A stretch of DNA of 36,361 nucleotides. It comes from a virus. This document shows positions 9,192 to 32,759 of the stretch, one piece after another. Below the pieces are notes generated by a model that saw nothing but the letters and a program-made list of their open reading frames with translations, made no database searches and had not been told where the DNA came from. The position numbers and the translations under genes were made by a program. Position 1 is the stretch's first letter. Every line of letters starts with the position of its first letter. Location: the IMG/VR virus record IMGVR_UViG_3300009068_005136, positions 1-36,361 of that record; one strand, 5' to 3'.

Positions 9192-9206
9192 TTTTATTTT
9201 TTAACC

Positions 9207-9674
9207 TTACATTACATATAAGACTATTTGTAGTTTCTTATTACTTACGTTCAAAGCTGGAATATTGTAGCTAATAGTCACACGAATGATTCCTGTACTA
9301 AGATTTTCTAGTCTATCTGTCTCTGACGCAAAGTCTACCAAATCTATAAATGGCATCCATTGGGAAACAGATGACTTAATTCTAATGACAGCTTCACTAT
9401 CAAAATCATCTTGAGAAACGAATTCTGTCGTTAAAGGTTTAAGGTTTGCGCCAAATGTATATTGACCAACTCTTTCTCCCCAATTTGTAAGAAGCAAATT
9501 TCTTAGATTGTCAGACAGTTGATTCGAAAGACTATAATGCATTTCTAAAAGTCCAGAATCATTGCTGAGCTGTAAAGGAGTTTTTATTCCAATCGGGGTA
9601 GCAGAAGACGCAAGAAAAGAATCTTGCTCTTGCTGCCTTGTCATACCCACACTTTTGAAATTTATTTTAGCCAT
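9207..9674 (-). CDS. gp25: Baseplate wedge subunit gp25-like / W-like (155 aa)
   Basis: The sequence has the gp25/W fold signature: IGIKTPLQL near residue 27, then LSNQLSDNLRNLLLTNWGERVGQYTFGANLKPL (about 48-80, the conserved segment in which tail-tube-side residues follow a helix and WGER loop), and a C-terminal beta strand region ending in VTISYNIPALNVSNKKLQIVLYVM. The length is in the usual range for the family (about 130-160 aa). The protein anchors the wedge to the hub and to the first sheath ring. The start at 9674 is preceded by an in-frame TAG at 9678-9680, so no longer in-frame product is possible without stop readthrough. A 13-codon open reading frame lies between this gene and the 582-residue gene upstream. 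Confidence 0.9.
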   Translation of the reverse strand: MAKINFKSVGMTRQQEQDSFLASSATPIGIKTPLQLSNDSGLLEMHYSLSNQLSDNLRNLLLTNWGERVGQYTFGANLKPLTTEFVSQDDFDSEAVIRIKSSVSQWMPFIDLVDFASETDRLENLSTGIIRVTISYNIPALNVSNKKLQIVLYVM

Positions 9675-9677
9675 TCT

Positions 9678-9719
9678 CTACTGCATACTATCTATATTTG
9701 AGCTTGAATCTGTCGCCAT
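9678..9719 (-). CDS. Possible 13-codon leader peptide before the gp25-like gene
   Basis: ATG at 9719 opens MATDSSSNIDSMQ and ends in TAG at 9678-9680. It lies in the same frame as the gp25-like gene, whose ATG follows the TAG by one codon. An AGG about ten bases upstream could serve as a weak ribosome binding site. It could be a translated leader coupling ribosomes onto the wedge gene, a remnant of a longer N-terminus, or chance. No homologue is recognised and a peptide this short cannot be judged by composition. Confidence 0.25.
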   Translation of the reverse strand: MATDSSSNIDSMQ

Positions 9720-9722
9720 TCT

Positions 9723-11471: not shown

Positions 11472-11483
11472 AATCTTGCTTTA

Positions 11484-13016
11484 TTATTTAATCAAAACTT
11501 TTCTAGAAAATGTTCCTAGGTCTGGTGGACCTTTTAAAGCGATAGCGTCCTTGTCTATGTTACCACCAGAGGTGCCGACAAAACCGCCTCCTGTAGTTGC
11601 CAACGGTAATGAAGTTACAGCACCATCTTCATTCTTTGCTGGTCTTTCAGTACAAAGAATCGCTTTTGTTGCGTCATCTCCGCCTAACTTTATCACTCCT
11701 TTATCGCTAGGTGTGAAGATGATATCTCCGTTTCTTCTTATAGTAATAGAAGCCCACTTTTCGGTGTCAGATTGGTCTAACTTAAAGACTCTTGACTCTC
11801 CAGGAGGAACCGCTTTTTCGTCTTTTAAAGCTTCTTCATAATTTGTAACAATAAGAGAGATGTCTGATCGAGCTATGATTCTAATCTTGTCTGATTTTAT
11901 TACTACTGCAGAATCTCCTGCGGTAGAGTCTAAAATTTCGTTATAGTCTTTTTGATATTCGTCTAATCTGAAATTAGAGTCTACTTTGGTTCTTTGAGAA
12001 ATTAATATTCTACTTCTGTCGTTTATAAAATCTGGGTCGCCTTCATTCTGGACTGTGTCTTTTGCAGATTTACCTAACTCTTTTTTTATCTCTTGTCCGT
12101 CTAATATCCTTGTCGTGCTTACTACTTTTCCACCTGTGGATTCTAACGTGCCACGACCAGTAACGATGTCGATACAACCTGCTTGATTTACAAAATCTTC
12201 TGTCGGAAGTGGTAATATTCCTCCTTCTTCTGGGTCAGAATCATCTACATTATACGTTGCAACGGGTCCGGATCGATCGGTCCCAAGAACAATTAAAGAA
12301 TTGTTACTTCCTTCTAAAGCAATATCGCCAGGTCTTTTTCTAAACCTTGGTACGGCTTCATAACGCATCATTTTTGCAGCGTCAGTTTCTGCTATTAACA
12401 ATTCAAAAACCTCTTCGTTGTCAGAAGAGATTATTTCAGAATCTGGTACTACGAATCTCGTTCCGTCTTTTGAACGATTTACTTTTCCGTTTCTTAATTC
12501 ATAGTATGAGTCATCATTTCCTTCTATTCTTTTCTTTATTGTAGAATTGAATGAATGATCTAATTGTCTAGCATGATGAGTGTGATTAACATCATCAATA
12601 AAGTGAGGCTCTGCAATTCTACAAAACCAATATCCCATTTCTTTTATTCTTGCGCCTGGACTCTCGAACATCGTCCACACAAGCTCGCCTGGTTTACATG
12701 GAAGAGACAGATGGGAAGGAAAAAATGGCAATAGAAACATCGGCGGTGTGACATTTGTAACACCTGTCAAAGCTTTTTGAGCTATTATTGTATTTCTTGG
12801 AAGTACAGAAGCAAACCTTATGTTTGATATGCGTAAAACGTTCTTCCAATACTCTATTTTATCTTCAGTTATGATATTTGGGTCAGAGATAGTCTCAAGT
12901 ACAACCATCCTCGTAAAAGTAGGTTGAGGGTCTTTTATAAGCTTTTTTATCTCTGTAACTGCAGCTGAGGCGACGCCTTCTGTTGCTTGACTAGAGTAAT
13001 TAGGATCGTAAACCAT
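11484..13016 (-). CDS. Baseplate hub/spike protein, gp5-like OB-fold (510 aa)
   Basis: Residues about 60-150 form an OB-fold like that of gp5/gpV/VgrG spikes: CKPGELVWTMFE (107-118), GYWFCRIAEPHFIDDVNHTHHA (128-149). A second conserved segment RKRPGDIALEGSNNSLIVLGTD (226-247) follows. The C-terminus has strands of spike beta-helix character: VVIKSDKIRIIARSDISLIV (371-390) and WASITIRRNGDIIFTPSDKG (421-440) followed by IKLGGDDATKAIL. There is no obvious lysozyme domain, so it differs from T4 gp5; the neighbouring 582-residue protein may supply a hydrolase. The role is the central membrane-piercing spike on which the wedges assemble. The gene is followed 12 bases later by the 582-residue gene, consistent with one baseplate operon. 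Confidence 0.8.
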   Translation of the reverse strand: MVYDPNYSSQATEGVASAAVTEIKKLIKDPQPTFTRMVVLETISDPNIITEDKIEYWKNVLRISNIRFASVLPRNTIIAQKALTGVTNVTPPMFLLPFFPSHLSLPCKPGELVWTMFESPGARIKEMGYWFCRIAEPHFIDDVNHTHHARQLDHSFNSTIKKRIEGNDDSYYELRNGKVNRSKDGTRFVVPDSEIISSDNEEVFELLIAETDAAKMMRYEAVPRFRKRPGDIALEGSNNSLIVLGTDRSGPVATYNVDDSDPEEGGILPLPTEDFVNQAGCIDIVTGRGTLESTGGKVVSTTRILDGQEIKKELGKSAKDTVQNEGDPDFINDRSRILISQRTKVDSNFRLDEYQKDYNEILDSTAGDSAVVIKSDKIRIIARSDISLIVTNYEEALKDEKAVPPGESRVFKLDQSDTEKWASITIRRNGDIIFTPSDKGVIKLGGDDATKAILCTERPAKNEDGAVTSLPLATTGGGFVGTSGGNIDKDAIALKGPPDLGTFSRKVLIK

Positions 13017-13017
13017 T

Positions 13018-13380
13018 TCAATGTCCGCTTATCTTTTTAAACATCTCTTCTGAGTCAATTTCATCATTTGATTTTTCTGCCTTCGACACTAGCTCAGCCA
13101 ATCTAATAAGCTGATCGTTTGATTTGCTCATTTTTTCTATGTACGAAGACAAAGACTTACCATGTACTGCGTGTTCTGTACTTTTATCATCAACAATTTT
13201 TACTAATTTTATGAACAAAGAATAAGCATTTTGACGATCATAGATTGCATTTTCATAGATTTCTTTCCAGAGCTTTTTCTTTTTATCAGATAAACCTTCT
13301 ATTTGGTTTAGAAGGCTAGAAAAGTCTCTGACTTTTTCTTCTATTTTAAGCTCAGATTCTTCTAATTTAGTTTCAATCAT
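13018..13380 (-). CDS. Small helical protein of unknown function (120 aa)
   Basis: A charged, almost entirely helical protein with coiled-coil character (heptad-like Leu/Ile spacing through residues 1-60 and 75-115) and no membrane segment. It starts inside the sigma-factor gene (8-base overlap with its stop), and its stop lies two bases before the gp5-like spike start, so all three are probably translated together. I do not recognise the family. Candidates by position are a tail-assembly chaperone or a partner of the sigma factor; neither is supported by a motif. Confidence 0.7.
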   Translation of the reverse strand: MIETKLEESELKIEEKVRDFSSLLNQIEGLSDKKKKLWKEIYENAIYDRQNAYSLFIKLVKIVDDKSTEHAVHGKSLSSYIEKMSKSNDQLIRLAELVSKAEKSNDEIDSEEMFKKISGH

Positions 13381-14134
13381 TGCTGTCTTTCTGCTCTGTT
13401 TTTATCTTTTTATAATGCTTCTTTATTGATTGCATTGTCGTTGTAAGTTGCTTTGGACTAAGACCAGATAACTCTCTCATGTAAAGAAGTATTGCATTTT
13501 TATTAAGAAGATCTATCTCATCTATACTTTCAAATATTGTAATAATCGAATTGATACACATCAACTCATTTTCTGTTCTTGCTTTTTCTCTAATCTCATA
13601 AAGAATAGCTGTTATTGTTTCTGTCGACTTTAATCCTTCAAGAAAAATGTCTTGAGATGGTAGAGTGCAATGTTCTTCAACAATATTTCTTTCATAGGCT
13701 GACAACATATTCGGATCATCAAGACTTACGTTCTTTTTTGTTTTTTGAGACTTTTGTTTTGTCTTGATAATCAACCAATTTTTTGCGACAACATTAAAAT
13801 AAGAAAAAGCGTTTGTTCCCCTAGCTGCATCAAATTTACCGATTGTTTCAAAAAGAAAATTGACACAGTCGTTTTTTAAATCGTCATAGGAATCATAAAG
13901 CCCTGCAAATTTATGAATATTGATCAAATTTTCTACAAGTTTTTCAAATGCAGGCATTATTTCTTGAACGTATAGTTTGTCTTTTTCTTTCTTATCAAAA
14001 GAAGATTGAAATTCTACAATCGCTCGTTGAGTGTCTGAATTAAAGTAAAGCTTAACTTGATCGGTCTTTTTAGGCTTTACTTCTTTTTCTTTTTTTTCTG
14101 GCTCTTGATCTGTTGTCTGCGTCATTGTTAACAT
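13373..14134 (-). CDS. gp55: gp55-like late-transcription sigma factor (253 aa)
   Basis: Residues about 40-140 resemble sigma region 2: a helix with YDDLKNDCVNFLFETIGKFD (83-102), then RGTNAFSYFNVVAKNWLIIKTKQKSQK (105-131) followed by VSLDD. This is the form seen in T4 gp55-type sigma factors, which direct host RNA polymerase to phage late promoters. The N-terminal 30 residues are lysine-rich and disordered. The C-terminal helices (about 160-245) contain LYMRELSGLSPKQLTTTMQSIKKHYKK, which resembles a helix-turn-helix but is weak. The start at 14134 has AGGAAG about seven bases upstream. It sits between baseplate genes and the glycan genes, unusual for a regulator and possibly coordinating late expression. 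Alternative ATG at residue 4 is possible. Confidence 0.8.
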   Translation of the reverse strand: MLTMTQTTDQEPEKKEKEVKPKKTDQVKLYFNSDTQRAIVEFQSSFDKKEKDKLYVQEIMPAFEKLVENLINIHKFAGLYDSYDDLKNDCVNFLFETIGKFDAARGTNAFSYFNVVAKNWLIIKTKQKSQKTKKNVSLDDPNMLSAYERNIVEEHCTLPSQDIFLEGLKSTETITAILYEIREKARTENELMCINSIITIFESIDEIDLLNKNAILLYMRELSGLSPKQLTTTMQSIKKHYKKIKTEQKDSND

Positions 14135-14142
14135 GCTTCTTC

Positions 14143-14454
14143 CTAGGCTAGGTTTTTGCCTTCGACATTTTCTTTTTCTCCCGTCAGTCTTTCAGAAACG
14201 AACAGTACTGCTTTTCGTGCCTGCTTTATATCATCAACTAGTTCTCGAATCGTCGGGTCGTCAGAAAATAATTCTAACTTTGCTTTTTTATCGATATTAT
14301 TATAACAATAATCTAAAATCTCTAAAGACTCTTCTACTTCTGACATTGTTTCTTCAATTATTTCAATCATTTCAAGGTTTCTTTTTACGCTAAAATACAA
14401 CCCAGTTATCGATATAATCGTAGTTGTAAAAAAAAGCAAAACCAGGTAAATCAT
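14143..14454 (-). CDS. Small membrane-anchored coiled-coil protein (103 aa)
   Basis: An N-terminal hydrophobic helix (residues about 2-21, MIYLVLLFFTTTIISITGLYF-type) forms one likely membrane segment with no cleavage site, followed by a charged coiled coil (about 22-60) and a basic helix with DDIKQARKAVLF near residue 75-85. The start overlaps the stop of the glycosyltransferase upstream (ATGA at 14451-14454). No family is recognised. A topology with a short outside end and long cytoplasmic coiled coil is suggested. It could be a spanin-like, holin-like or superinfection-related protein, but no motif supports any of these. Confidence 0.65.
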   Translation of the reverse strand: MIYLVLLFFTTTIISITGLYFSVKRNLEMIEIIEETMSEVEESLEILDYCYNNIDKKAKLELFSDDPTIRELVDDIKQARKAVLFVSERLTGEKENVEGKNLA

Positions 14455-15626
14455 AAAATTTCCTTTGTAGCCTCATCGTAAGCTTTAAAGACTGCGGATG
14501 AAGAGCATTTTTCTTTAATAATGATAGAAAGCTCTTCAGCCCATTCTTTCGGAGTAGAAAAGCTGTTTCTAAACTTCAAAACTTTTTTCTTAAAATCATC
14601 TTCAATCACTTCGGCCCATTTTGCGCCTGGAATAAAAATTTTTCCGTCGACTCTTGATGAGTGTATCTCTTTTAAGTTGTAAGAAACGTTGATATATTTT
14701 CCATGATTAAGAAAATCTGTGTGTCCAGACCATCCTGTCGCGATTACAGGTAGCGCGCTTGCCGCAGCTTCTAGAATTGGAAGTCCGTAACCTTCTCCTC
14801 TAGTCAAAGAAACAAGAGCTTTTATTTGTTTATGTCTATACAAGGCTGCAACGTCTTCATTAGACATCTCTCCATGAAGTAAATGTACTTTTGGAAAGTC
14901 TCCTTTACGACACTCTTTAAGGAGAGTTTTCATGATTTGTGCTGTACGATGTTTATCGATATGAGTGTTTCTGCCCGAGTTTGTTTTTATTACGATCCCA
15001 ACATCTTTATCATTTTTAAAAGTCTCGCACAACCACTTTATCGTGAAGAATATATTTTTTCTATCATTCATAGGATTATCTCCCGTGATCTGACCGAAAA
15101 TTAAAAAATTAAAGTCTGTAGAAAGCTGCGGAAATTTTGGCGATGTTTCATTGTGATACAAAATTTCATCACAGAAAGATTCTGGAACTATTGCGATCGT
15201 TGTCTTTAATTCTCCGCTTTTTTGAAGAACTTCAGCAGAGTGTCTAGAAGGAACGATTATAAGATCCATCTTATTACAAGACGTGACCCATTCTGGGTTA
15301 CATACATCTGTTTCAACAGCTGCTGTAAGACCAACATTATAGTTTGCTATTGATGGATCCCACTCGTTTGGTAGCTGCAGCTGAAAAGAAACATCATATT
15401 GTTTATCTGGACTTACTTTGATATCGACAGTATTTCTTGTTATCTTTCCTATTAAACCATCATCAAAATTATCATCTAATATCCAGGGGGTATCTCCCCA
15501 AGGTAGAGCCTGGTATTTAACGTCTATCTGAGGTCTTTTACTTTCTAACCATGCTGCGACTTGTCGACAATGGACGCCATATCCTGACTGGGTTAGTGAC
15601 GGTCCTCTTAAAATTACTTTTTTCAT
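14451..15626 (-). CDS. GT-B glycosyltransferase, GT4-like (391 aa)
   Basis: The protein has an N-terminal Rossmann-like half beginning KKVILRGPSLTQSGYGVHCRQ and a C-terminal nucleotide-sugar-binding half with the GT4 EX7E motif at Glu278-Glu286 (RGEGYGLPILEAAAS), followed by LPVIATGWSGHTDFL. A conserved IFGQITGDNPMNDRKN segment (177-191) fits the start of the C-terminal domain. Family GT4 enzymes are retaining transferases using sugar-nucleotide donors; donor and acceptor cannot be told from sequence. The ATG at 15626 has GGAG eight bases upstream. It is the last of the glycan genes in transcription order before the small membrane protein and the sigma factor. Confidence 0.88.
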   Translation of the reverse strand: MKKVILRGPSLTQSGYGVHCRQVAAWLESKRPQIDVKYQALPWGDTPWILDDNFDDGLIGKITRNTVDIKVSPDKQYDVSFQLQLPNEWDPSIANYNVGLTAAVETDVCNPEWVTSCNKMDLIIVPSRHSAEVLQKSGELKTTIAIVPESFCDEILYHNETSPKFPQLSTDFNFLIFGQITGDNPMNDRKNIFFTIKWLCETFKNDKDVGIVIKTNSGRNTHIDKHRTAQIMKTLLKECRKGDFPKVHLLHGEMSNEDVAALYRHKQIKALVSLTRGEGYGLPILEAAASALPVIATGWSGHTDFLNHGKYINVSYNLKEIHSSRVDGKIFIPGAKWAEVIEDDFKKKVLKFRNSFSTPKEWAEELSIIIKEKCSSSAVFKAYDEATKEIL

Positions 15627-15628
15627 TA

Positions 15629-16879
15629 TCAGATCTCCGTAAGAGTCCAGCTGTTCGGGCGATTATTTTGCCAATTTTCGATAGTACTTGTTAGAGTTTC
15701 ATCCCAGGATTTGATCATGTCATTTATGTCATAATCTTTATGAGCATGTGCCATTGCTTTTAATCCAAGCTCTTTACGAGAGTCTGGTCCCATCTCGTAC
15801 ATTTTCATAAATGAATCTGCTAACGTCTTGTGGGACACAAAGTCTTCATAGATGTAAGGAACCATTTGGTTACCGACTAGAGACTTTACTTCTGGGTCTA
15901 ATCCAATCCCGTACTGCTCTCCTGTCTCATGATCTTCGACTTGACGAGTCAGACCGCCAGTTTTTAGAGCGATGATTGGCTTTCCGCACATCATTGATTC
16001 GAGCGTTGGAAGACCAAATCCTTCATTACAGCTACGATTGACGATCGTATCGAAAGAATTATAAAGAAGACACATTTCGTCAAACGCGATTCTGCTTTTA
16101 GAAAAAACTACATTTTTGGAAACGTCCATAGCATCAACAACGTGATAAAGATTTGGGCCTTCAGGGTCTAAAGGCTCAGTGTGCATCACCAATGTTGCTT
16201 TTTTATGGCCGTACTTTTCTTCAAGAGAGTCTAAAAACATTTTCCAAGAAATAACAATATCACTTGGCATTTTACGTCGAGCATTACGAGAAACATAACC
16301 TACAACAAAATTGTCTGCATTTTCTTCTCCAAGAAGCTTTTTCTTGAAGCGGTTTACGTCGTTTTCTGGTAATGGTCTATAAAGATCTTTTGGCACGGCG
16401 TGAGGAACGTAATTTGTCTTTTCAGGAAAACGTTCTTTGACCATGCGGTAAGTTGGCCAATTGATGCAATTAATCAAATCTGTTGATTCATAAAGAACTT
16501 TATTAAAATCTGGCCACGGTGGATTGTCCCATAGATGCCAGTATGTTATTGGACAAATCTGTTTAATTTCGTCTGCCATTTCCCAGACCCATATGAAAAA
16601 TCTTGGATCTGTAAAAAGCATCAGCGCATCGGGTTTAAGCTGAACCAACGTTTGTCTTAATAGGTTTCTATCTCCAAAACCGTTTGTTGGTTTTATGATA
16701 AAGTCTTGGTTTACTACGTTGAGGTTATAATCTTCATGTCTTACTGCACCTCCAAAACACCTGAAGCTATACTTTCCTGTATTAATAAGTCCATGAATAA
16801 GCCACCTTGCCTGAGTGCCAACTCCAGACGTTGAAAGTGGGTGATCACTAAGCATTAATATTGTTTTTTTGTTACCCAT
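15629..16879 (-). CDS. GT-B glycosyltransferase, GT4-like (416 aa)
   Basis: The N-terminus has the SDHPLSTSGVGTQARWLIHGL acceptor-side glycine loop (11-31), a WHLWDNPPWPDF segment (114-125) and, in the C-terminal half, FVVGYVSRNARRKMP (191-205) and the EX7E motif Glu286-Glu294 (NEGFGLPTLESMMCGKPIIALKTGGL). This is a GT4-family architecture of normal length. It lies two bases upstream of the 391-residue GT4 gene; the pair may act in sequence on one glycan. Donor sugar is not predictable. There is a 42-base gap (16880-16921) before it in which no terminator is seen. Confidence 0.88.
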   Translation of the reverse strand: MGNKKTILMLSDHPLSTSGVGTQARWLIHGLINTGKYSFRCFGGAVRHEDYNLNVVNQDFIIKPTNGFGDRNLLRQTLVQLKPDALMLFTDPRFFIWVWEMADEIKQICPITYWHLWDNPPWPDFNKVLYESTDLINCINWPTYRMVKERFPEKTNYVPHAVPKDLYRPLPENDVNRFKKKLLGEENADNFVVGYVSRNARRKMPSDIVISWKMFLDSLEEKYGHKKATLVMHTEPLDPEGPNLYHVVDAMDVSKNVVFSKSRIAFDEMCLLYNSFDTIVNRSCNEGFGLPTLESMMCGKPIIALKTGGLTRQVEDHETGEQYGIGLDPEVKSLVGNQMVPYIYEDFVSHKTLADSFMKMYEMGPDSRKELGLKAMAHAHKDYDINDMIKSWDETLTSTIENWQNNRPNSWTLTEI

Positions 16880-17775: not shown

Positions 17776-18714
17776 TCAATCTTTGATTTTCTTAGAGACT
17801 GCTCTACCGATTAATTTTTCCCAATCGCGTTCAGGACGAACTTCAAGATTCTTTTCCCAAGCTGCTTTAAGCAACTTAGGATCCACATCAACTGATTCAG
17901 CTAAACAAATCATAGCATTGATGTCTTTTGGAAAACAGCTTCCGCCATATCCTCTTTTTCCATCAGGACCAGGAACATTCCAGTGACTTTGACCGAGTCT
18001 AGAGTCATAGGATGCATATTCGACGACTTTATCATAGTCAACATTTAATCCTGATTTGTCTAGAGCTTCGCAGATCTGTGCCATCTCATTTGCAAATGCG
18101 ACCTTAATAGTCAAAAAGTTGTTTGTGAGATACTTGATCATCTCGGCGGTCGTCGATGAAGTCTTAATAATTTTGACGTCAGAAAATGCAGCTCTAAAAA
18201 TTTGCTTAACGGAATTGATCCACGGTCGAGGACCGCCTAGGATGATTCTATCTTGATTTCTCATGTCATCAAGAGCAGTCCTCTCCGTCAAAAACTCTGG
18301 ATTGAAGACGATATGAAGTCCTGTCTCTGAGAACTTCTTGTTCCAGCGCTCGGTTGAACCAGGAGGAATTGTGGATTTGATGACAGCGATTCTTTCGCCC
18401 GGTATTGCCGCTAATTCTTTTAACGCACCTTCGACGATGCTAAGATCGGCAGAACCATCTTCTCGCATTGGTGTCGGAAGGCACACGAAATAAATGTTTG
18501 AAAATCCAGGTGTTCCACCATTCTCATTATCTCCAATTAATTCTGCAATAGATCCAGGGTAACCAGCAACGGAATCTCCATGACTTGGTAATGCTCCTTT
18601 AGAATATTTTCCAGCTTTGTCATAAGCATAGACGTCGACTCCTCTTTCTGAAAAAACAGTTGTAAGAGAACCGCCAACAAACCCTTGTCCAATTACTGCA
18701 ATTGAATTTTTCAT
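17776..18714 (-). CDS. UDP-glucose/GDP-mannose dehydrogenase family, C-terminal domain missing (312 aa)
   Basis: NAD-binding GQGFVGGSL (9-17), CLPTPMREDGSADLS, STIPPGSTERW, FNPEFLTE (137-144), the helix EMIKYLTNNFLTIKVAFANE (191-210) and the catalytic GYGGSCFPKD with Cys260 and Asp264 are all present. These enzymes oxidise the C6 hydroxyl of a nucleotide sugar to a carboxylate with two NAD+. The standard protein is about 390-450 residues; this one stops soon after the catalytic loop and lacks the C-terminal nucleotide-sugar-binding domain. It is therefore either a minimal enzyme or needs a partner. The next gene upstream, overlapping by four bases, is a second short relative, so a hetero-oligomer is possible. 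Confidence 0.88.
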   Translation of the reverse strand: MKNSIAVIGQGFVGGSLTTVFSERGVDVYAYDKAGKYSKGALPSHGDSVAGYPGSIAELIGDNENGGTPGFSNIYFVCLPTPMREDGSADLSIVEGALKELAAIPGERIAVIKSTIPPGSTERWNKKFSETGLHIVFNPEFLTERTALDDMRNQDRIILGGPRPWINSVKQIFRAAFSDVKIIKTSSTTAEMIKYLTNNFLTIKVAFANEMAQICEALDKSGLNVDYDKVVEYASYDSRLGQSHWNVPGPDGKRGYGGSCFPKDINAMICLAESVDVDPKLLKAAWEKNLEVRPERDWEKLIGRAVSKKIKD

Positions 18715-19463
18715 TTTTGCTTTTTGTATTGTTTGATTAAATCAAGAGCGAGAGACTGACATTGTTTTGATAACAATTCGGCGTTTTCGACTATGCAGTG
18801 TCCACCGATCCCGCCTTCGGGAGAAGTTAACGTTGGTCGAACAACATTTGGTTTTCCCAGAGCCGTATAACTTTCATTGTATGATTTATTATACGCTGTC
18901 ATCGCTTGGTCAAAGTTCGCACCAAATTTTTCACAAGCCTTTTTTGCTTCACCGTGATATGCGATACAAATTCCATAGTAGCTTGTATCTAATAGCTTCG
19001 CCAATTCTGTGGTCTCGGCATTGTCACACTTTGCCACGTTTAATTTCAATGATGATAAGTGGGTCGCGGCCGCATCTAGATCTTCATCATTTATTGCACC
19101 AACGAATTTTGGAAACGTTAGTAATCCCTCATATAAATTTGGGTGTATTCCCCTGCAGGGTGAATGAACAATTTTTACGTGAGGCAAGAGCTGCTTTAGC
19201 TTGCGTGTTGTACCAACCGAAACAGTAGAATGAATGATAGCTAATTTTGTGTTTGATGCTTGAATCTCTTTTTTAACCGTCTCTACGAAATCAAAAGACT
19301 CATTAAATGGAATCGCAATGTTAAGTACATCAAGATCTTTGAGCTCATCATGTCGATTCAAGTCTTTTACAAAGCAGCTAAAAAGCAAATCTGAATTTTG
19401 ATAAAGCTTATGTACAGCTTGTCCTATTTCTCCAAATCCTAAAAATCCAATCTTATTGTCCAT
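18711..19463 (-). CDS. Short divergent nucleotide-sugar-dehydrogenase-like protein (250 aa)
   Basis: The protein keeps the outline of the UDP-sugar dehydrogenase superfamily in shrunken form: Rossmann GFLGFGEIGQAV (5-16), HSTVSVGTTRKL (matching STVPPGTT), VHSPCRGIHPNLYEG, ETTELAKLLDTSYYGICIAYHGE (the helix that holds the lysine in the family, here with Lys at LAKLL), and GGIGGHCIVENAELL (matching GGHCIPxD, with the catalytic-type Cys). It lacks the C-terminal nucleotide-sugar-binding domain and an Asp after the Cys loop. It overlaps the start of the 312-residue dehydrogenase by four bases. It may be a catalytic partner, a related sugar-acid dehydrogenase, or a non-catalytic subunit. Confidence 0.72.
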   Translation of the reverse strand: MDNKIGFLGFGEIGQAVHKLYQNSDLLFSCFVKDLNRHDELKDLDVLNIAIPFNESFDFVETVKKEIQASNTKLAIIHSTVSVGTTRKLKQLLPHVKIVHSPCRGIHPNLYEGLLTFPKFVGAINDEDLDAAATHLSSLKLNVAKCDNAETTELAKLLDTSYYGICIAYHGEAKKACEKFGANFDQAMTAYNKSYNESYTALGKPNVVRPTLTSPEGGIGGHCIVENAELLSKQCQSLALDLIKQYKKQK

Positions 19464-20097
19464 GTGCTAATGCCTCGTCATATTTCTTTAATTCTTGTAA
19501 GTCATTTGTTCTATTCTCACCATGCATTCTATATCGATACAGAGACATTGGCAAATGGAACAATGAAAATTTCTTCAAGAATCTATTAATGAGATCGTGA
19601 CCTTCTCGCATTCTAAAATTCTCATCATAGAAATTAATCTCACAAAGAGATTCATAGGTAAACATCACACCGCATGCGATTGGTTCTTCTTTTGCTGAAT
19701 GACGAGTTAACAGTTGCCCAACTTCGTCTACTTTTTGATAGTCGCAAGCCACAGCTTGATATGCACGATTCATATCTAAAAACAAAGAAAGGGTGTGCAC
19801 AAAATGGCTTGAAACATAATCGTCACTGTCAACTCTAACGAAATAGCGACCTCGAGCGCTTTTGAGTATCTTATTCAGTGAAGCTGGTAATCCCAAGTTT
19901 TTAGGGTTGTTAATCAGCCTAATGTTTAATAGATCTTTCATACTCTCACAAATTTCTGAGAGATTTTCTTGTAGGTCATCATTCACAACCACAACTTCAA
20001 ATTCATTCTTTGATAGTGTTTGACTGGCCAGACTACGCAGACATCTGTGCAACCATTTTTTTTGCTTGTAGCATGATATTCCAATCGTAACTTTCAT
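19453..20097 (-). CDS. GT-A glycosyltransferase, family 2-like (214 aa)
   Basis: The opening VTIGISCYKQKKWLHRCLRSLASQTLSKNEFEVVVVND is the classic GT2 start, followed by NNPKNLGLPASLNKILKSARGRYFVRVDSDDYVS with the metal-binding DSDD at 90-93. A late MREGHDLINRFLKKF segment matches the acceptor-side ED/GHD motif. The protein is compact (214 aa) and has no membrane segment. It overlaps the dehydrogenase-like gene by 11 bases and the 306-residue hydroxyacid dehydrogenase by 4 bases. The inverting transfer of an unknown sugar is inferred from the family. Confidence 0.88.
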   Translation of the reverse strand: MKVTIGISCYKQKKWLHRCLRSLASQTLSKNEFEVVVVNDDLQENLSEICESMKDLLNIRLINNPKNLGLPASLNKILKSARGRYFVRVDSDDYVSSHFVHTLSLFLDMNRAYQAVACDYQKVDEVGQLLTRHSAKEEPIACGVMFTYESLCEINFYDENFRMREGHDLINRFLKKFSLFHLPMSLYRYRMHGENRTNDLQELKKYDEALAHGQ

Positions 20098-21014
20098 ACA
20101 ATGAATTGTTTGCTTAATTTTAAGACTGAAACGAACGCTTTCAATTGACTTTCTGTTGTAGCCCCAGCGACATGCGGAGTTATTGCAACGTTCGAGTTGG
20201 TTTTTGATGCATTATACAACTTTGATTTTTTTAGTTCAAGAATATTTTGCTCATTCTGTAGGACGTCGGCACCAAAAAGGATGTTTTTTGAATCGATCAA
20301 GTGTAAGATGTAATCTTCATCTACAACTTCACCACGAGATGTGTTGACAACAATAGCTCCCTGCTTAAGTTGATCCAAGGTACCATATGTTATCATTCCT
20401 CTTGTTTCTTCCGTCAGATAGCAGTTTATTGAAATAATGTCACAATTATTTAAGCTGGTTATGCCGCTAACTTTTTCGACATAACTTGGATATTCAAAGA
20501 CGTATGGATCGTAGACCATGATATGAAGGCCAAAAGCATTAGCATAGTTTGCAATTTTTTTTCCGATTCTTCCGAATCCGATTATGCCTATTTTCTTTGA
20601 ATGTAATTCATTCGATCTTAAAAATTCTTCGTTTTGTTTTGAACGCCAATCATCAACTGACGTCAACGCTTTTGAAAATTTTCTGACTAAATTCATGATG
20701 TGTAGCCATGTGAATTCGGCCGAGGCATGAATGTTATCTAATGTTTGTCTATCATCTAAAAGACACAACACTGAGATATTCATTTTTTTCAAAGTTGCGA
20801 CATCAATATGGTTCGTGCCCGTTGAGGGTGTTGCAACAACTTTTAAGTTTTTGTAATGAGAAAAATGTTTGTAGTCTAAGAATAATTCTGTCCCTGGATT
20901 TACGACAATTAATTCTGGGTCAGAATCATCAATAACTAAATCAAAGTTTTTTATAGCGTCTTTGAACGTCTCCACACTAATAAAATCTAGTGGACACTCG
21001 AACCTTACTCTCAT
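20094..21014 (-). CDS. D-isomer-specific 2-hydroxyacid dehydrogenase (306 aa)
   Basis: The NAD-binding GIIGFGRIGKKIANYANAFG (147-166), the NTSRGEVVDED catalytic arginine segment (about 224-234) and ITPHVAGATTES with catalytic His (about 278-289) define the SerA/D-lactate-type family. No ACT or C-terminal regulatory domain is present, and the length is normal for a minimal member. It starts three bases after the NeuA-like gene with AAAGGA upstream, and it overlaps a GT2 gene. Members of this family recur next to CMP-nonulosonate genes in surface polysaccharide clusters, where their substrate is often unproven; a role in making or modifying a keto acid precursor is inference. Confidence 0.87.
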   Translation of the reverse strand: MRVRFECPLDFISVETFKDAIKNFDLVIDDSDPELIVVNPGTELFLDYKHFSHYKNLKVVATPSTGTNHIDVATLKKMNISVLCLLDDRQTLDNIHASAEFTWLHIMNLVRKFSKALTSVDDWRSKQNEEFLRSNELHSKKIGIIGFGRIGKKIANYANAFGLHIMVYDPYVFEYPSYVEKVSGITSLNNCDIISINCYLTEETRGMITYGTLDQLKQGAIVVNTSRGEVVDEDYILHLIDSKNILFGADVLQNEQNILELKKSKLYNASKTNSNVAITPHVAGATTESQLKAFVSVLKLSKQFIV

Positions 21015-21017
21015 TAT

Positions 21018-21719
21018 TCAATCCTTTAAGTTTTTTATCAGAGATTCAGCCAAGTAAAAATCTATCATTGAATCTATGTTGACAGAATGAAGTTCATCCA
21101 TGATATATGGACGAGAGACGGCACCATTTCTAGAAAACTTTTCTACTATACAGTCTCTAGTCATTGCATAAATTGCGCCGTTTCTGATGTAACAAGGTTC
21201 TAGCTCCTGTCTTCTAGACCCTTCACCTTCTGGAAATTCCTTACAAAAGTCTTGGATTGTATCATTAATAATCCTCTTCATTCTTACAGGATGCTTATCT
21301 TGCATCTGGCATACTGAAATGACGCTGTCAGCATCTGAAGTTGTAAGCTTTTCTACTGCTTCTTTAATATGGGTTTCGTTACGAAGAGGCGCGACGCAAG
21401 GTAGCTCTACAACGTAATCGTATCTTTTGTTGTAGACATTTTCACATTCTAGAACAGCATGCTTTAAAGCATCTCTGGACCAGACTTGATCTCCAGATAA
21501 TTCAGATGGACGTATGAATGGTACTTGGGCGCCCGAATTTTTGGCCACATGAGCGATTTCTTCACAGTCGGTACTGACAATGAAGTCTTCAAAGAGACCG
21601 CTTTTTAATCCAGCTTCTATTGTGTAAGAAATTAATGGCTTGCCACAAAGTAACTTGATGTTCTTTTTAGGAATACCTTTTGAACCGCCTCGGGCTAGGA
21701 TTACTCCAAGTATTTTCAT
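21018..21719 (-). CDS. neuA: CMP-nonulosonate (acylneuraminate) cytidylyltransferase, NeuA-like (233 aa)
   Basis: The CTP-binding signature [22 protein letters not shown] is at residues 8-29, followed by [36 protein letters not shown], and the family's [18 protein letters not shown] and [15 protein letters not shown] segments near the C-terminus. The length is that of single-domain NeuA. The enzyme would couple CMP to a sialic-acid-like nine-carbon sugar. The gene starts one base after the small methyltransferase stop, with GAGG five bases before the ATG. A NeuB-like gene lies just upstream, making a compact NeuB-methyltransferase-NeuA set. Substrate choice (Neu5Ac, legionaminate, KDN or another) cannot be told. 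Confidence 0.92.
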
Positions 21720-22286
21720 TTATACCTCAAAGAAATATCTGTAATTTGAATCTGGGAGCGTCGTCTTTTTCTTTTCGACTAGCTTCATGCTTACGACTGA
21801 ATCGACATTTTCGATATTTTCTTGTATGACTGCTGATTTACAAACAGTATGCAAATCCCTTAACATCGATAAGCGGCTAGTTTCGATGTGTATTAAGTGA
21901 GCATTAGTTATGATGACATCAAAGTTTTTGTTCTGCTCGATACAGCTCTTTAAAAAGTCTGCGCTATCTTCTTCGACAATGTCTACATACCCACGATTTT
22001 CTTTGATGTAAGCGATGGCATCTTTCCAAACATCATTACCTGTGAGAGTCGCATTCGGAAAATGCTCATGTATTATGCCGAGGTTCGTTCCCCAGCCACA
22101 CCCAAGTTCATGTAAGGTGAAAGAATCTTCTTTTTTAAATTTCTGAGATAGTACCTCAACAATAGAAAGCGAATAAGGTAATCTTACACTCATGTTAAGA
22201 TAATCTGACTTACCATTTTCTTTTTCTATTGGAGCTTGCCAATACTTGATGCCTGTTACATAAACTGACGGTCTTTTAATTGTCAT
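21720..22286 (-). CDS. Small class I SAM-dependent methyltransferase (188 aa)
   Basis: LHELGCGWGTNLGIIHEHFP (58-77) is SAM motif I, with NDVWKDA as the likely acidic ribose-binding strand and FDVIITNAHLIHIE as motif IV. The protein is short, so only the core Rossmann fold is present. It lies between the NeuB-like and NeuA-like genes, which suggests modification of the nonulosonate or its precursor; that is inference from position. The family could also act on other small molecules. The gap to the next upstream gene is 23 bases. Confidence 0.8.
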   Translation of the reverse strand: MTIKRPSVYVTGIKYWQAPIEKENGKSDYLNMSVRLPYSLSIVEVLSQKFKKEDSFTLHELGCGWGTNLGIIHEHFPNATLTGNDVWKDAIAYIKENRGYVDIVEEDSADFLKSCIEQNKNFDVIITNAHLIHIETSRLSMLRDLHTVCKSAVIQENIENVDSVVSMKLVEKKKTTLPDSNYRYFFEV

Positions 22287-22309
22287 GAAACTAATCTAAC
22301 GTTTAAGAG

Positions 22310-23008
22310 TTATAAAGTTAATTTTCTAACTAAAAATATTTGTCTACCTAAATCATTTAAAACTTTTAGTTCGTTTAAATCCATTGACCCAATGTGGTCA
22401 TTTCCTGTCGCAGATTTGTCTAAAGTAAAGTGTTTTTCAATATAGCTTGCGCCTAGAGATATATGGTGCAAACAACTTGCAATTCCATAGGAGTGATCGC
22501 TAAACCCAACTATCTTTGAATCATAATTTCTGTATGCATTTTTATTGAAATCTAAAATGCTGGTTGGATACTTGGAAATACAGTTAAAATAGTGGACATT
22601 CGTCTCTAAATGTGGCAATGCATCTTGTTCCCATTGACCTAAGGATACGAATGTTTCAATTCCGGTATTGATTATAGCTTTAGTTAAAGCAGGTTCTTTC
22701 TTTAATGTTCTACTTGCTATCTTGAAGTAATTTACTTTCAGCTCCTGGCACCAACTAATTTTTTCTTCATCAAATACTGAAGCAAAAAACTCTATATCAT
22801 AAGCATCGCAGATTTCTTTTATTAGCTTTACTTGCTCAAAGCTGAACTCATTTTTCTTTCTAGAATCATCTCCAAAAACTCTAACAGAATCATACAGCTG
22901 AAATTTAGCAAAGTCGGCTCCGCCAATAGAGGATTGGCGTATTAGCTCTTCTATCAATCTAAAATCTCCATTATGATTGATTCCAATTTCAGATATAATC
23001 TTTAGCAT
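22310..23008 (-). CDS. neuB: NeuB-type nonulosonate synthase, SAF domain missing (232 aa)
   Basis: The barrel motifs of NeuB are all in order: SEIGINHNGD (6-15), FAKFQLYD (33-40), FFASVFDEE (74-82), FKIASR (95-100), VGFSDHSYGIA (167-177), and YIEKHFTLDKSATGNDHIGSMDLNEL (189-214), with His172 and His193 in metal-ligand positions. The enzyme condenses phosphoenolpyruvate with a six-carbon amino sugar to give a nine-carbon acid. Full-length NeuB is about 340-350 residues and ends with an antifreeze-like SAF domain that closes the active site of the partner subunit; here the protein stops at the end of the barrel. It could be a functional minimal form, or work with a host subunit. It overlaps the upstream gene by seven bases. 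Confidence 0.88.
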   Translation of the reverse strand: MLKIISEIGINHNGDFRLIEELIRQSSIGGADFAKFQLYDSVRVFGDDSRKKNEFSFEQVKLIKEICDAYDIEFFASVFDEEKISWCQELKVNYFKIASRTLKKEPALTKAIINTGIETFVSLGQWEQDALPHLETNVHYFNCISKYPTSILDFNKNAYRNYDSKIVGFSDHSYGIASCLHHISLGASYIEKHFTLDKSATGNDHIGSMDLNELKVLNDLGRQIFLVRKLTL

Positions 23009-24126
23009 AAATCCTTAAAAACTTCTTTGACTGTGGCAGCAATTAACTTTGCTGCATTAGATCTTAAAATAAAATCGCTATCCTGAAATTTATCAGCTCC
23101 TTTAAACTCGAAAATTTCTTCTATGTTTTCTATGGATCGGTTGTAAACGTCATCAGGATATGTTACACTTTTTAAGTAATGTACTTTTTTGTAATAAGGC
23201 TTGTCTTTCAAATTGATCGAATAGCTTTTTCGTTTTGAAAAGTGAGTTTCCCAAGAGATATGTGATCCAGACATGTTGAATAAAGCGTCACAGTGCGTTA
23301 CTGCATCAAAGTGATCTTGACTTTCTATGATTATTGCATCAGGAAATTTGTTTTTCAAAAACTCATACTGTGGACAAGAACCGTAAATTCTTTTATAGAC
23401 TCCCGTATATTGATCATCTGATTCATGAAACAAATAATCGTTAGGGTATGTTTTTATTAAAATTCTTGAATCATACCTTGCTGCAATCGAAAATATTTTT
23501 TCTAACTCTTGTATGTTTTGATCAAATTGAGAAACATGGGATGCTGGATTTGTAGGGCAGACTAGTATTAGCTTTTGTTTGGGGGTCGTACCATACTTTT
23601 CACAAAAAGTTTCTTTTTTGAAGTTATCGAGAAAATATTCATCATAATGCGGGGACCCTGTAACATAAATCTGCTTTTCGGGTATTCTCTTTTCTTTTTG
23701 TAACCATTCTTTCCACGCGGCACCTTTTGTGAAATAAAAATCCGCAAAGTGCACAGCATTCGTTAGGATATCGCCACCACCAATATCCCAAACTGCGATT
23801 GGGCACTGCTTATTGTCCTTTAATTCATGTGGATATCTTGTTTTTGGTGCGATATGAGTTGAGGTTAGGATTAAAGCGTAGTCATTAGAAATAGAATAAA
23901 GCTCACGCCAGTTTTTTATGGTTTTTAAGTTTTTTATCTTAAAAACGCTTGATTTGAATTGATATTTCTCTATTCCTACGAAATTCTTGTTAAGTCTAAT
24001 GTCTTGGTCAAACATTAACAGGTCAACATCTATACCAATATCTTGTAGCGATTCAAGTAGCCTAATTCCATCATATGGGATACTGCTCCAAAAAAAATCT
24101 CCTAAAAATATCGCTATTTTTTTCAT
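23002..24126 (-). CDS. Putative GT-B-like transferase of surface polysaccharide synthesis (374 aa)
   Basis: No family is certain. The protein has two Rossmann-like halves: residues 1-140 open with KKIAIFLGDFFWSSIPYDG, and the second half contains IYVTGSPHYDEY, LILVCPTNPASHVSQFDQN, RILIKTYPNDYLF, and CDALFNMSGSHISWE, similar in layout to CDP-glycerol glycerophosphotransferase-type or polysialyltransferase-type GT-B enzymes. I place the start at 24126 rather than an upstream ATG at 24144, because it gives the ATGA overlap seen at most junctions nearby. Its position directly upstream of the NeuB-like gene suggests it transfers the nonulosonate or a related sugar, but this is inference. Confidence 0.75.
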   Translation of the reverse strand: MKKIAIFLGDFFWSSIPYDGIRLLESLQDIGIDVDLLMFDQDIRLNKNFVGIEKYQFKSSVFKIKNLKTIKNWRELYSISNDYALILTSTHIAPKTRYPHELKDNKQCPIAVWDIGGGDILTNAVHFADFYFTKGAAWKEWLQKEKRIPEKQIYVTGSPHYDEYFLDNFKKETFCEKYGTTPKQKLILVCPTNPASHVSQFDQNIQELEKIFSIAARYDSRILIKTYPNDYLFHESDDQYTGVYKRIYGSCPQYEFLKNKFPDAIIIESQDHFDAVTHCDALFNMSGSHISWETHFSKRKSYSINLKDKPYYKKVHYLKSVTYPDDVYNRSIENIEEIFEFKGADKFQDSDFILRSNAAKLIAATVKEVFKDLC

Positions 24127-24851
24127 TTCTTTAGTAAATACCATCTCTCAAAATTACTTGTCACGTGCTTTTTAAATTCAAACTTATTTTTATCAAGCTT
24201 GGATAAAAACTCATCAACGGCAATTCTTGCTCCTGGATATTTGAGCGAATAGTACTCATCAAACACAATGATTCCACCACTTACGATTTTATCATACAAT
24301 AAGTTTAAGCATTCTAAATAAGGTTCATATAGATCACAATCAATGTGTAGGACAGAGATTGGCTTATGGAAGCTTGGCAGAACATCAGAAAACTTTCCGC
24401 GTATTAAAGTAATACTACGCTTCTTAGCTTCTTCAAAAACATCACCTTGTGAGATAGCAAAATATTCTGAATTTAGATGCGAATCATTTTTCAATGAAGA
24501 TAGTCTCTCTAAAGATCTCTGATAGTGTTGTTCACTTATTCTTCCTTGTTCATAAAGAACTTTAAACGCATCAGGTGAATCATTCGCGTTTTGTGTCTGC
24601 TCTACTGGGAATCCACCGAATGTATCGATTCCAACAAACTTTTTATCGATTCCTCTTAACTTAGAAAACTCATGAGATGTAAATAATGTGCTGCCTTTAT
24701 AAACCCCACATTCTATAAAGCAGCCATCCAAATTTTTCGTTTGTTCTAATGCATAGCATAGCAAATGAACGTTGTCAACGACGGAAAGGCCTAAGCTTTT
24801 AATCGTGCTTTGCGCTTTGGAAATTTCTTCTTTAATTTCTTCTATTATCAT
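24123..24851 (-). CDS. TylF/MycF-family O-methyltransferase (242 aa)
   Basis: The TylF pattern is complete: DGCFIECGVYKGSTLF (42-57, SAM motif I), FVGIDTFGGFPV (72-83), ITLIRGKFSDVLPSF (147-161), LHIDCDLYEPYLECL (168-182) with Asp171 and Asp173 in the metal site, and GGIIVFDEYYSLKYPGARIAVDEF (192-215) with Asp198. These enzymes methylate sugar hydroxyls with Mg2+ and SAM. In this cluster it probably methylates a residue of the glycan. The gene overlaps both neighbours by four bases. The fold is well supported; the acceptor is unknown. Confidence 0.9.
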   Translation of the reverse strand: MIIEEIKEEISKAQSTIKSLGLSVVDNVHLLCYALEQTKNLDGCFIECGVYKGSTLFTSHEFSKLRGIDKKFVGIDTFGGFPVEQTQNANDSPDAFKVLYEQGRISEQHYQRSLERLSSLKNDSHLNSEYFAISQGDVFEEAKKRSITLIRGKFSDVLPSFHKPISVLHIDCDLYEPYLECLNLLYDKIVSGGIIVFDEYYSLKYPGARIAVDEFLSKLDKNKFEFKKHVTSNFERWYLLKK

Positions 24852-30868: not shown

Positions 30869-31764
30869 AGTGAGTTTATTAAATTTCTATAATTAAGATA
30901 TCCGGTCGGTAATTTTAAATTATTTACTGCTGGTATGTTAGGAGTTGCTGTCGTTATATCGTCTGAAATTGATTTTTCAGAAAGAACTTGACTTGCTATA
31001 CCAATATTTCTAGAAACGACAGGAATGTTCAACAAGCCACATTCAATTAATGATTGTGGACCACCTTCGTACCTTGAAGTGACAGGATATAAATCTAGCG
31101 TTTGGTACAGTTCATTGATAACCTCTTGAGAAGGTCTATCAAAATAAGTGTAAGGTATTCCTGACTTTTCTAACCTAGACATAACATATTGTCGACGCCA
31201 ACCTGCAAGAACAATATGAATATCCTTATTGCTTTCCCAAAATTTTTCTACTGCATCTACAAAAAGATCTGGTCCCTTTTCTAGTTTAGGGGTCTTAAGA
31301 TCATGACCTTCTGTGTCTCTTTGAAAAGAACCGATGAGGTATCCATCGAGCGGCAGGCTATATTTTTTTCTTAGAAACTCTTTTGTGTTTGTTGTTTTCC
31401 AAATGTTTTGGTTTGCCCAATAAGGTATTGTAATAATAGGCTTTTTAGTCAACTTTTCTATGAAAGATTTTGTGTGATCATTTGGAACATGATATACATC
31501 TGTCAATGAATCTCTATCTTGGAACTCCAGAAATTTGTTTTGATCGAATTTTTCTTCAACAATGTGATGGACAGTTGTGATTACTTTCTTCTTCTCTAGT
31601 AATCCCATATCAATGTTTCGATAACACCAACTAGCCAGTAACCAAATTACATCGGCATCATTTGGACTATTTGTACAAATATCCCGATTACCTTCGTACC
31701 ACTCGCTTACTAATCTGTCTACTACCCAGTCTTCTGAAGGTCTTAAAACGAAGACTTTGTTCAT
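30865..31764 (-). CDS. GT-B glycosyltransferase, GT4-like (299 aa)
   Basis: The C-terminal half carries GYLIGSFQRDTEGHDLKTPKLEKGPDLF (141-168), typical of the start of the donor domain, IHIVLAGWRRQYV, and the EX7E pair Glu233-Glu241 (RYEGGPQSLIECGLLNIPVVSRNIG). The N-terminal domain is short (about 110 residues). It sits directly after GDP-mannose 4,6-dehydratase with an ATGA overlap, so the product of that enzyme could feed its donor pool, but donor identity is inference. Confidence 0.85.
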   Translation of the reverse strand: MNKVFVLRPSEDWVVDRLVSEWYEGNRDICTNSPNDADVIWLLASWCYRNIDMGLLEKKKVITTVHHIVEEKFDQNKFLEFQDRDSLTDVYHVPNDHTKSFIEKLTKKPIITIPYWANQNIWKTTNTKEFLRKKYSLPLDGYLIGSFQRDTEGHDLKTPKLEKGPDLFVDAVEKFWESNKDIHIVLAGWRRQYVMSRLEKSGIPYTYFDRPSQEVINELYQTLDLYPVTSRYEGGPQSLIECGLLNIPVVSRNIGIASQVLSEKSISDDITTATPNIPAVNNLKLPTGYLNYRNLINSL

Positions 31765-32759
31765 GATTCAAACATAACCTTTTCTTTTAAGGCAAGCAAA
31801 ATGTCGTATTCCACCATCTTTTTGACGAGAGACTTAAAGTCTACCTTTGGAGTCCATCCTAGAACATTTTTTGCCTTAGTAACATCGCCTGTTAAGGTGT
31901 CTACTTCAGAAGGTCTCATAAACTTTTGATCGATCTTAATGTATTTCTCTTGGTCGAGCCCAGCGATAGTAAAAGCTTCATCAATAAACTCTTGCACGGA
32001 GTGTTGTTCTCCTGTACCTATAACATAATCATCAGGTTTATCCTGCTGCAACATTAACCACATTGCCTCGACGTATTCTGGGGCATATCCCCAATCACGA
32101 AGGGCGTTTGTGTTACCCATCTTTAGTTCATTCTGAAGACCTGCCTTGATTCTTCCAACAGCTCTTGTAATCTTGCGGGTTACAAAGTTTTCGCCACGAC
32201 GCTCTGATTCGTGATTGAATAAAATTCCTGAGCACGCAAACATATCATATGATTCACGATAGTTTTGCGTAATGTAATGGGCATATACTTTAGCGCAGCC
32301 ATAAGGACTGCGTGGATAAAATGGAGTGTTTTCGTTTTGAGGGGTCTCTCTGACTCTACCGAACATTTCGCTAGATGACGCTTGATAGAATTTACAGTCG
32401 AGCTTCGAGCGCTTGATGGCGTCCAAAAGATTTAAGGCTCCAAGAGCAGTAACTTCCGTAGTGTTGACTGGTTGATCGAATGATAAACCAACATGACTTT
32501 GCGCGGCAAGGTTATAAATCTCGTCTGGTTGAATTATTTCCAATAATGTTCGCATTCCTGAAGCATCCATTAAATCGCCATGGTGCACTTCTAACTTTTG
32601 GGAAAGCATTGCACTTTTTAGGTGCCCCCACCTGTCAGGAGTAAACTGGGTTGATTGTCTAATTAATCCATGAACTTCGTAACCTTTAGAAATCAAAAGA
32701 TCGACAAGATAACTTCCATCCTGACCAGTTACGCCTGTAATAAATGCTTTTTTATTCAT
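31761..32759 (-). CDS. gmd: GDP-mannose 4,6-dehydratase (332 aa)
   Basis: The sequence is unmistakable: ITGVTGQDGSYLVDLLISKGYEVHGLIRQ (7-35), HHGDLMDASGMRTLLE (59-74), YNLAAQSHVGLSFDQPVNT, the SSSEMFG catalytic segment (128-134), Tyr153 and Lys157 in SPYGCAKVYA, and FNHESERRGENFVTRKITRA (about 181-200). It converts GDP-mannose to GDP-4-keto-6-deoxymannose, the branch point to GDP-fucose, GDP-rhamnose, perosamine and others. No reductase or transaminase partner that finishes the pathway is visible nearby, so the host may supply it. Its start overlaps the TAA of the previous gene by one base (TAATG). Confidence 0.96.
   Translation of the reverse strand: MNKKAFITGVTGQDGSYLVDLLISKGYEVHGLIRQSTQFTPDRWGHLKSAMLSQKLEVHHGDLMDASGMRTLLEIIQPDEIYNLAAQSHVGLSFDQPVNTTEVTALGALNLLDAIKRSKLDCKFYQASSSEMFGRVRETPQNENTPFYPRSPYGCAKVYAHYITQNYRESYDMFACSGILFNHESERRGENFVTRKITRAVGRIKAGLQNELKMGNTNALRDWGYAPEYVEAMWLMLQQDKPDDYVIGTGEQHSVQEFIDEAFTIAGLDQEKYIKIDQKFMRPSEVDTLTGDVTKAKNVLGWTPKVDFKSLVKKMVEYDILLALKEKVMFES

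Follow-up and report, generated by a model that had tools for sequence, protein, structure and literature searches.

Which sugar does a marine phage make when it carries genes for a NeuB-like synthase and a NeuA-like transferase within 2 kb of each other? Synthases of the NeuB type condense phosphoenolpyruvate (PEP) with an aldose, and the product is then activated with CMP by an enzyme of the NeuA type. An initial annotation had read the two genes, with a small methyltransferase gene between them, as a compact CMP-nonulosonate module at 21018-23008. The question reaches beyond this locus: surface glycans help determine the pairing of phages with ocean bacteria, and the sugars of the most abundant bacteria are poorly known.

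The window, by which we mean the whole stretch of DNA analysed, comes from IMG/VR as a linear virus record; it is 36,361 bases long and has a GC content of 34-41%. It encodes T4-type baseplate wedge proteins, one of them from a gene ~30% identical to those of Flavobacterium and Microcystis phages, as well as a late sigma factor, and is a fragment of an uncultured marine T4-like phage. The genes of interest lie in a glycan cluster of ~20 glycosyltransferase, methyltransferase and sugar-dehydrogenase genes, all on one strand. Those considered here are, in the direction of transcription:

23002..24144, minus strand: ORF380, 380 aa, overlapping the neuB start, with borderline Epimerase_2 similarity
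22310..23008, minus strand: NeuB-like PEP-condensing ulosonate synthase, 232 aa (Pfam NeuB, E 6.1e-37)
21720..22286, minus strand: class I SAM methyltransferase, 188 aa (Methyltransf_25, E 9.2e-9)
21018..21719, minus strand: NeuA/PseF-like CMP-sugar-acid cytidylyltransferase, 233 aa (CTP_transf_3, E 6.6e-24)
20094..21014, minus strand: D-2-hydroxyacid dehydrogenase (HADH), 306 aa (2-Hacid_dh_C, E 2.4e-40)
19453..20097, minus strand: GT2 glycosyltransferase, 214 aa (Glycos_transf_2, E 1.1e-21)
18711..19463, minus strand: second and more divergent UGDH-like protein, 250 aa (UDPG_MGDP_dh, E 1.1e-7; TIGR03026, 59 bits)
17776..18714, minus strand: nucleotide-sugar dehydrogenase, 312 aa (UDPG_MGDP_dh_N and central domain only; NDP-sugDHase, 202 bits)

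The NeuB-like, methyltransferase and NeuA-like genes of the initial annotation are intact minus-strand ORFs with Pfam support at the coordinates above. Compared with their counterparts in the related locus L004, the cassette genes are under purifying selection (dN 0.13-0.39, with dS saturated).

The synthase and the CMP transferase

The NeuB-like protein passes the Pfam NeuB model (PF03102, 127.8 bits, cut-off 22.1) and falls below the equivalog cut-offs for NeuB_NnaB (TIGR03569, 139 against 399.7 bits) and PseI (TIGR03586, 104 against 340.3 bits), scores that are lowered in part because the SAF region is missing. An AlphaFold2 model contains a TIM barrel only (pLDDT 88.6), with 6ncs (a Leptospira sialic acid synthase), 8h2c (PseI) and 1xuu (NeuB) as the best PDB matches. 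The C-terminal SAF domain is absent and with it Arg314, which is essential in the Neisseria meningitidis enzyme NmNeuB, where R314A is inactive (PMC6795526); beyond the D247 equivalent the phage proteins run on for only 25-35 residues, as against ~100 in canonical enzymes. When the protein was aligned to the NmNeuB catalytic residues listed in the same paper, we found the equivalents of E25, K53, Q55, F112, K129, S132, Y186, S213, H215, E234, H236 and D247 kept, T110 and N184 replaced by Ser, and Glu134 replaced by Thr, with Arg as the preceding residue. The metal and PEP residues are invariant across 12 phage NeuB-like proteins. The retention of catalytic residues, by which the initial annotation proposed to judge the enzyme, thus extends to most positions and fails at the SAF Arg314 and at Glu134, and with these two lost the NeuB-like activity could be altered or gone.

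The window protein carries KIASRT, and KIAS-[R/K]-[T/S] is an unusual signature of its clade. At the Glu134 position almost every member of the clade has Thr or Ser (L102 has Val), while Glu134 is kept in the sister, HADH-linked NeuB clade. The residue four positions after the catalytic Lys, which touches the sugar C2, is Gly in Neu and Leg synthases and Phe in Pse synthases (PMC7371886). It is Arg or Lys in nearly the whole window-type clade, including proteins from Azospirillum (L317), SAR11-type genomes (L310, L312) and Omnitrophota (L018), the exception being L104 (Val). Our hypothesis is that the in-barrel Arg before position 134 takes over the role of the SAF Arg.

In a quickly built tree of 108 rows, in which four annotated sequences served as the only anchors and LegI had none, the window-type synthases formed their own 16-row clade (SH-aLRT 99), to which neither the NeuB nor the PseI anchors belonged. 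Placement within the NeuB clade, which the initial annotation had looked to, was thus not recovered, and the protein sits in a SAF-less clade of its own that also holds SAR11, Azospirillum and Omnitrophota proteins. The sister of this clade (SH-aLRT 91) consists of other synthases, mostly HADH-linked, and both are separate from the PseI anchors and from a large ordinary SAF-less group. Compared with N. meningitidis NeuB (1xuu) and Campylobacter jejuni PseI (8h2c), the window synthase shares the TIM-barrel fold and the PEP and metal residues, but differs in lacking SAF/Arg314, in carrying KIASRT for KIGSGE/KIASFE and in its separate clade. Its best match in both fold and profile is the SAF-less synthase of Leptospira borgpetersenii (6ncs), a short chain of 290 residues that likewise has no room for a full SAF domain, although identity is only 29% over the structural alignment and the motif is ASCD where the window has ASRT. 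On plasmid p6 of Azospirillum argentinense (L317:6149-16158), a short NeuB of the window-type clade lies in a polysaccharide locus beside asnB, methyltransferase, GNAT, DegT and NTP-transferase genes, with no HADH annotated within 6149-16158.

The NeuA-like protein has both the CTP_transf_3 domain and the RGGSKG motif. All 13 NeuA relatives have PseF as their top-scoring NCBIfam model, the window protein falling below the equivalog cut-off (TIGR03584, 160.1 against 205.7 bits); in the PDB, CMP-NeuAc synthetases match better than KdsB, and similarity to Kdo cytidylyltransferases is weak. The family shares the motifs ARGGSKG(I/V)P-KN, RRQ and NGAIY with known NeuA/PseF cytidylyltransferases. It differs from them in its sub-cut-off PseF score, in an invariant SVNID for SVDID, with Asn standing where the DxD motif of the PDB relatives has its first Asp, and in its pairing or fusion with a 2-hydroxyacid dehydrogenase. 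Among isolated phages, we found no homologue of the NeuB-like protein above 30% identity, and the sole match to the NeuA-like protein was a Moritella bacterial record. Collectively, the pairing of synthase and CMP transferase stands, with most catalytic residues kept, and an identity as Neu, Leg or Pse is not supported. The resulting sugar is likely to resemble a nonulosonic acid without belonging to these established types. For such phage genes, NeuB and NeuA matches alone are poor ground for annotating sialic acid synthesis.

A dehydrogenase linked to neuA in phages and bacteria

We retrieved 16 viral loci with the NeuB-like protein and compared their gene neighbourhoods. The usual order is neuB, neuA, HADH, GT2 and a short nucleotide-sugar dehydrogenase gene, often with an SDR gene. 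The conserved unit is neuB-neuA-HADH-GT2, usually with the nucleotide-sugar dehydrogenase, and is wider than 21018-23008; the narrower extent had missed the GT2 gene (19453-20097) and the conserved HADH gene (20094-21014), the most informative partner. HADH was present at all 15 window-type viral loci, 13 of them distinct and all related to one another, but at none of the 59 other viral NeuB loci and none of the 80 bacterial ones; given that relatedness, the Fisher value for this contrast serves as description only. Wherever the two genes adjoin in the relatives, HADH starts -28 to 0 nt from the end of neuA; in the window they are 3 bases apart. The GxGxxG motif of HADH (G146/G148/G151) and residues R227, E255 and H281 are invariant in 14 aligned sequences, and a PDB search returned PGDH-like proteins. 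Enzymes of this class, the 2-hydroxyacid dehydrogenases, use NAD(P) to turn alpha-keto acids into alpha-hydroxy acids and back.

The NeuA-HADH pair recurs in a different NeuB clade (L179, L183, L184 and L192, as well as L186-L191 with a divergent HADH), which gives independent support for the linkage. No HADH was found in the DNA retrieved for the distant NeuB-clade members L099-L105. The GT2 family of the cassette also lies beside a short NeuB in Omnitrophota (L018) and in a SAR11-type genome (L312). GT29 sialyltransferase-like genes adjoin the cassette at L098 (E 1.9e-18) and L179 (2.4e-12), with a homologue at L183 that is 93% identical to the L179 gene and a weaker match for L007 (8e-6) and its homologues. 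These neighbours fit a CMP-sugar product; a GT29-type transferase was not found in the window. Two variant arrangements were also noted. At L010:6684-8456, a 590-aa fusion of a second NeuB domain with a cytidylyltransferase replaces neuA between neuB and HADH, and two phage loci (L231:5983-9398 and L233:5977-9403) have the order NeuA, enolase-superfamily-like, weak HADH-like, NeuB.

The methyltransferase, which the initial annotation had taken as a sign of a modified sugar, did not hold up as a meaningful part of the module. The gap between neuB and neuA is usually empty among the relatives. Where it is filled, it holds a methyltransferase gene (the window and L166), a GT2-like gene (L002) or a GT29-like gene (L006/L007). 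The neighbourhood comparison, with L166 as the only relative carrying a methyltransferase, led us to reject it as part of the cassette core. Its match to Pse_Me-ase is weak (27.6 bits against a cut-off of 112), and it is an accessory, optional decoration.

We also searched bacterial genomes for the linkage. In the taxonomic order to which a Pelagibacteraceae genome belongs, 347 genomes gave six HADH matches at E <= 1e-50, and all six SAR11-type genes adjoin a NeuA-type domain, three as adjacent pairs and three as fusions. The fusions are single NeuA::HADH proteins of 570-580 aa (L304/L310, L306/L312 and L307/L313) with both domains confirmed by Pfam, which is strong evidence that HADH shares a pathway with activation. 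At L312, the fusion, GT2 and short NeuB genes are consecutive, forming a cellular version of the phage cassette, and at L310 one gene separates the fusion from GT2 and the short NeuB; through their NeuA portions, these two fusions form the sister group of the cassette NeuA (SH-aLRT 90). Elsewhere the linkage was rare: of 385 Alphaproteobacteria drawn from across the class, a single genome (G259) had it, 198 genomes from an actinobacterial phylum gave nothing at the threshold applied, and no NeuA::HADH was found on plasmids. In the SAR11-type genome G889 (L313:8290-12923), genes for an MR/MLE enolase-superfamily enzyme, another HADH and a DAHP synthase come after NeuA::HADH, an arrangement suggesting that a non-NeuB synthase may feed the NeuA::HADH activation step.

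In the literature searched, we found no report of a 2-hydroxyacid dehydrogenase in nonulosonate clusters and no description of a neuB-neuA-HADH-GT2 cassette. The closest published parallel to the NeuA-HADH coupling is EpaA of Acinetobacter prophages, in which a CMP-transferase domain is combined with an aldo/keto reductase and which, with EpaB, leads to 8-epi-pseudaminic acid (PMC12053666). EpaA/EpaB are likewise phage-borne and join a CTP_transf_3 domain to a nonulosonate-tailoring oxidoreductase, but the partners are an aldo/keto reductase domain and an SDR rather than a 2-hydroxyacid dehydrogenase, and no synthase is encoded.

A proposed pathway and its alternatives

Neither a NeuC epimerase nor PseB/C/G/H was recognised in the window, where PseG and PseH had no separate search, and because the window is a fragment, upstream genes missing from it alone prove nothing. 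However, Epimerase_2 also stayed below cut-off in nine related phage records, including ones of 172, 185 and 171 kb, so the absence of a NeuC-type epimerase given in the initial annotation is upheld in far longer relatives. A DegT aminotransferase is encoded in three of the nine records, and Polysacc_synt_2 matches in related phages are weak. The aldose must be supplied by the host or via a route that does not start from UDP-GlcNAc. ORF380 belongs to a conserved phage family with borderline similarity to UDP-GlcNAc 2-epimerases of the GT-B type (Epimerase_2 E 0.015 for the window protein and 1.2e-4 at best, in five of nine homologues; PDB 4neq, E 0.021), and its structure model is of low confidence (pLDDT 50). 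It occurs in only a subset of cassette phages and is not upstream of many cassettes. Given the borderline E values, this patchy presence and an hhalign probability of 0.2% with one epimerase, we do not claim it as a hidden NeuC.

From the gene order, linkage, gene fusion, families and residues described above, we infer the reactions, the sugar and its destination as follows. The short NeuB-like enzyme would join PEP to an aldose from the host or from other phage genes, giving a 3-deoxy-2-ulosonic acid, as its family and conserved residues indicate. HADH, whose linkage and fusion to NeuA are observed directly, would carry out an NAD(P)-dependent redox reaction on the alpha-keto or alpha-hydroxy acid of the ulosonate or a precursor, next to activation; that it edits the keto-acid end is the most economical reading. 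NeuA would couple the product to CMP, consistent with its family and motifs. A transferase, perhaps the conserved GT2 (19453-20097) here and a GT29-type enzyme in relatives, would add the sugar to a glycan, most probably at the surface of the infected cell. We give a probability of about 0.6 to this overall reading, namely that a ulosonic acid of an uncharacterised kind is built by the cassette, tailored by a redox step and activated with CMP for use in a phage-directed glycan. A bolder version is possible though doubtful, namely that marine T4-like phages and SAR11-type bacteria share a further nonulosonate-like class, built by a SAF-less synthase in which an in-barrel Arg substitutes for the domain-swapped SAF Arg, and edited by HADH at its keto-acid end directly before or at CMP activation. 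Through the cassette common to SAR11-type genomes and marine phages, both an acidic sugar that is probably new and the rewriting of host surfaces by phages can be put to direct test.

It seems unlikely that the locus is a conventional module for Neu, Leg or Pse, with NeuB/NeuA turning a host N-acetylated hexose into CMP-Neu5Ac, -Leg or -Pse and HADH as a side gene. Family membership, the PDB matches, the ranking of PseF among the NeuA relatives and the DegT genes would all suit such a module, but the proteins score below all equivalog cut-offs, the synthases form a clade without the NeuB or PseI anchors and with Arg/Lys in place of the Neu/Leg Gly or Pse Phe, NeuC is absent from long relatives, and the HADH linkage is too consistent, and in bacteria fused, for a side gene. 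Quite unlikely, in turn, is a product other than a C9 sugar, in which a smaller or non-amino aldose would yield an octulosonic, heptulosonic (Kdo/DAH-like) or ulosaric acid and HADH, sometimes with an enolase-superfamily enzyme, would act on the carboxylate end. The loss of the SAF Arg, the binder of the N-acetyl group, points in this direction, as do the weak Kdo-cytidylyltransferase similarity, the DAHP synthase and MR/MLE enzyme at L313 and the gene order at L231/L233; the GT29-like neighbours and the better match of NeuA to CMP-NeuAc synthetases than to KdsB argue against it.

The remaining alternatives concern the destination of the sugar and the activity of the synthase. The island adjoins late structural and sigma genes, as might be expected if its target were the virion or the DNA of the phage and not the surface of the host. 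We consider this improbable, since with its many sugar-transfer genes and the GT29-like neighbours the cluster looks like a polysaccharide locus and the SAR11-type homologues sit among other sugar-nucleotide and glycosyltransferase genes. The recognised parallel, moreover, is with the LPS gene clusters of cyanophage P-SSM2, which set a precedent for glycan islands in marine phages of the T4 type (PMC2984593); the window has a similarly large island but differs in containing a defined cassette for ulosonate synthesis and activation, which is related to genes of the SAR11 type. That the synthase is a decayed, inactive relic, as loss of the Glu134 equivalent and the SAF domain might suggest, is hardly credible given the low dN against saturated dS and the invariant metal and PEP residues.

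We also noted several features around the cassette and in its relatives. Both UGDH-like proteins (17776-18714 and 18711-19463) are without the C-terminal UDP-binding domain, and the former keeps the catalytic-Cys motif GGSCFPKD. The window further encodes a GDP-mannose 4,6-dehydratase (31761-32759) above its equivalog cut-off (462 against 415 bits), close homologues of which are common in other phage glycan loci. Finally, one phage locus (L104:2313-8727) carries three different NeuB-type synthases inside 6.5 kb.
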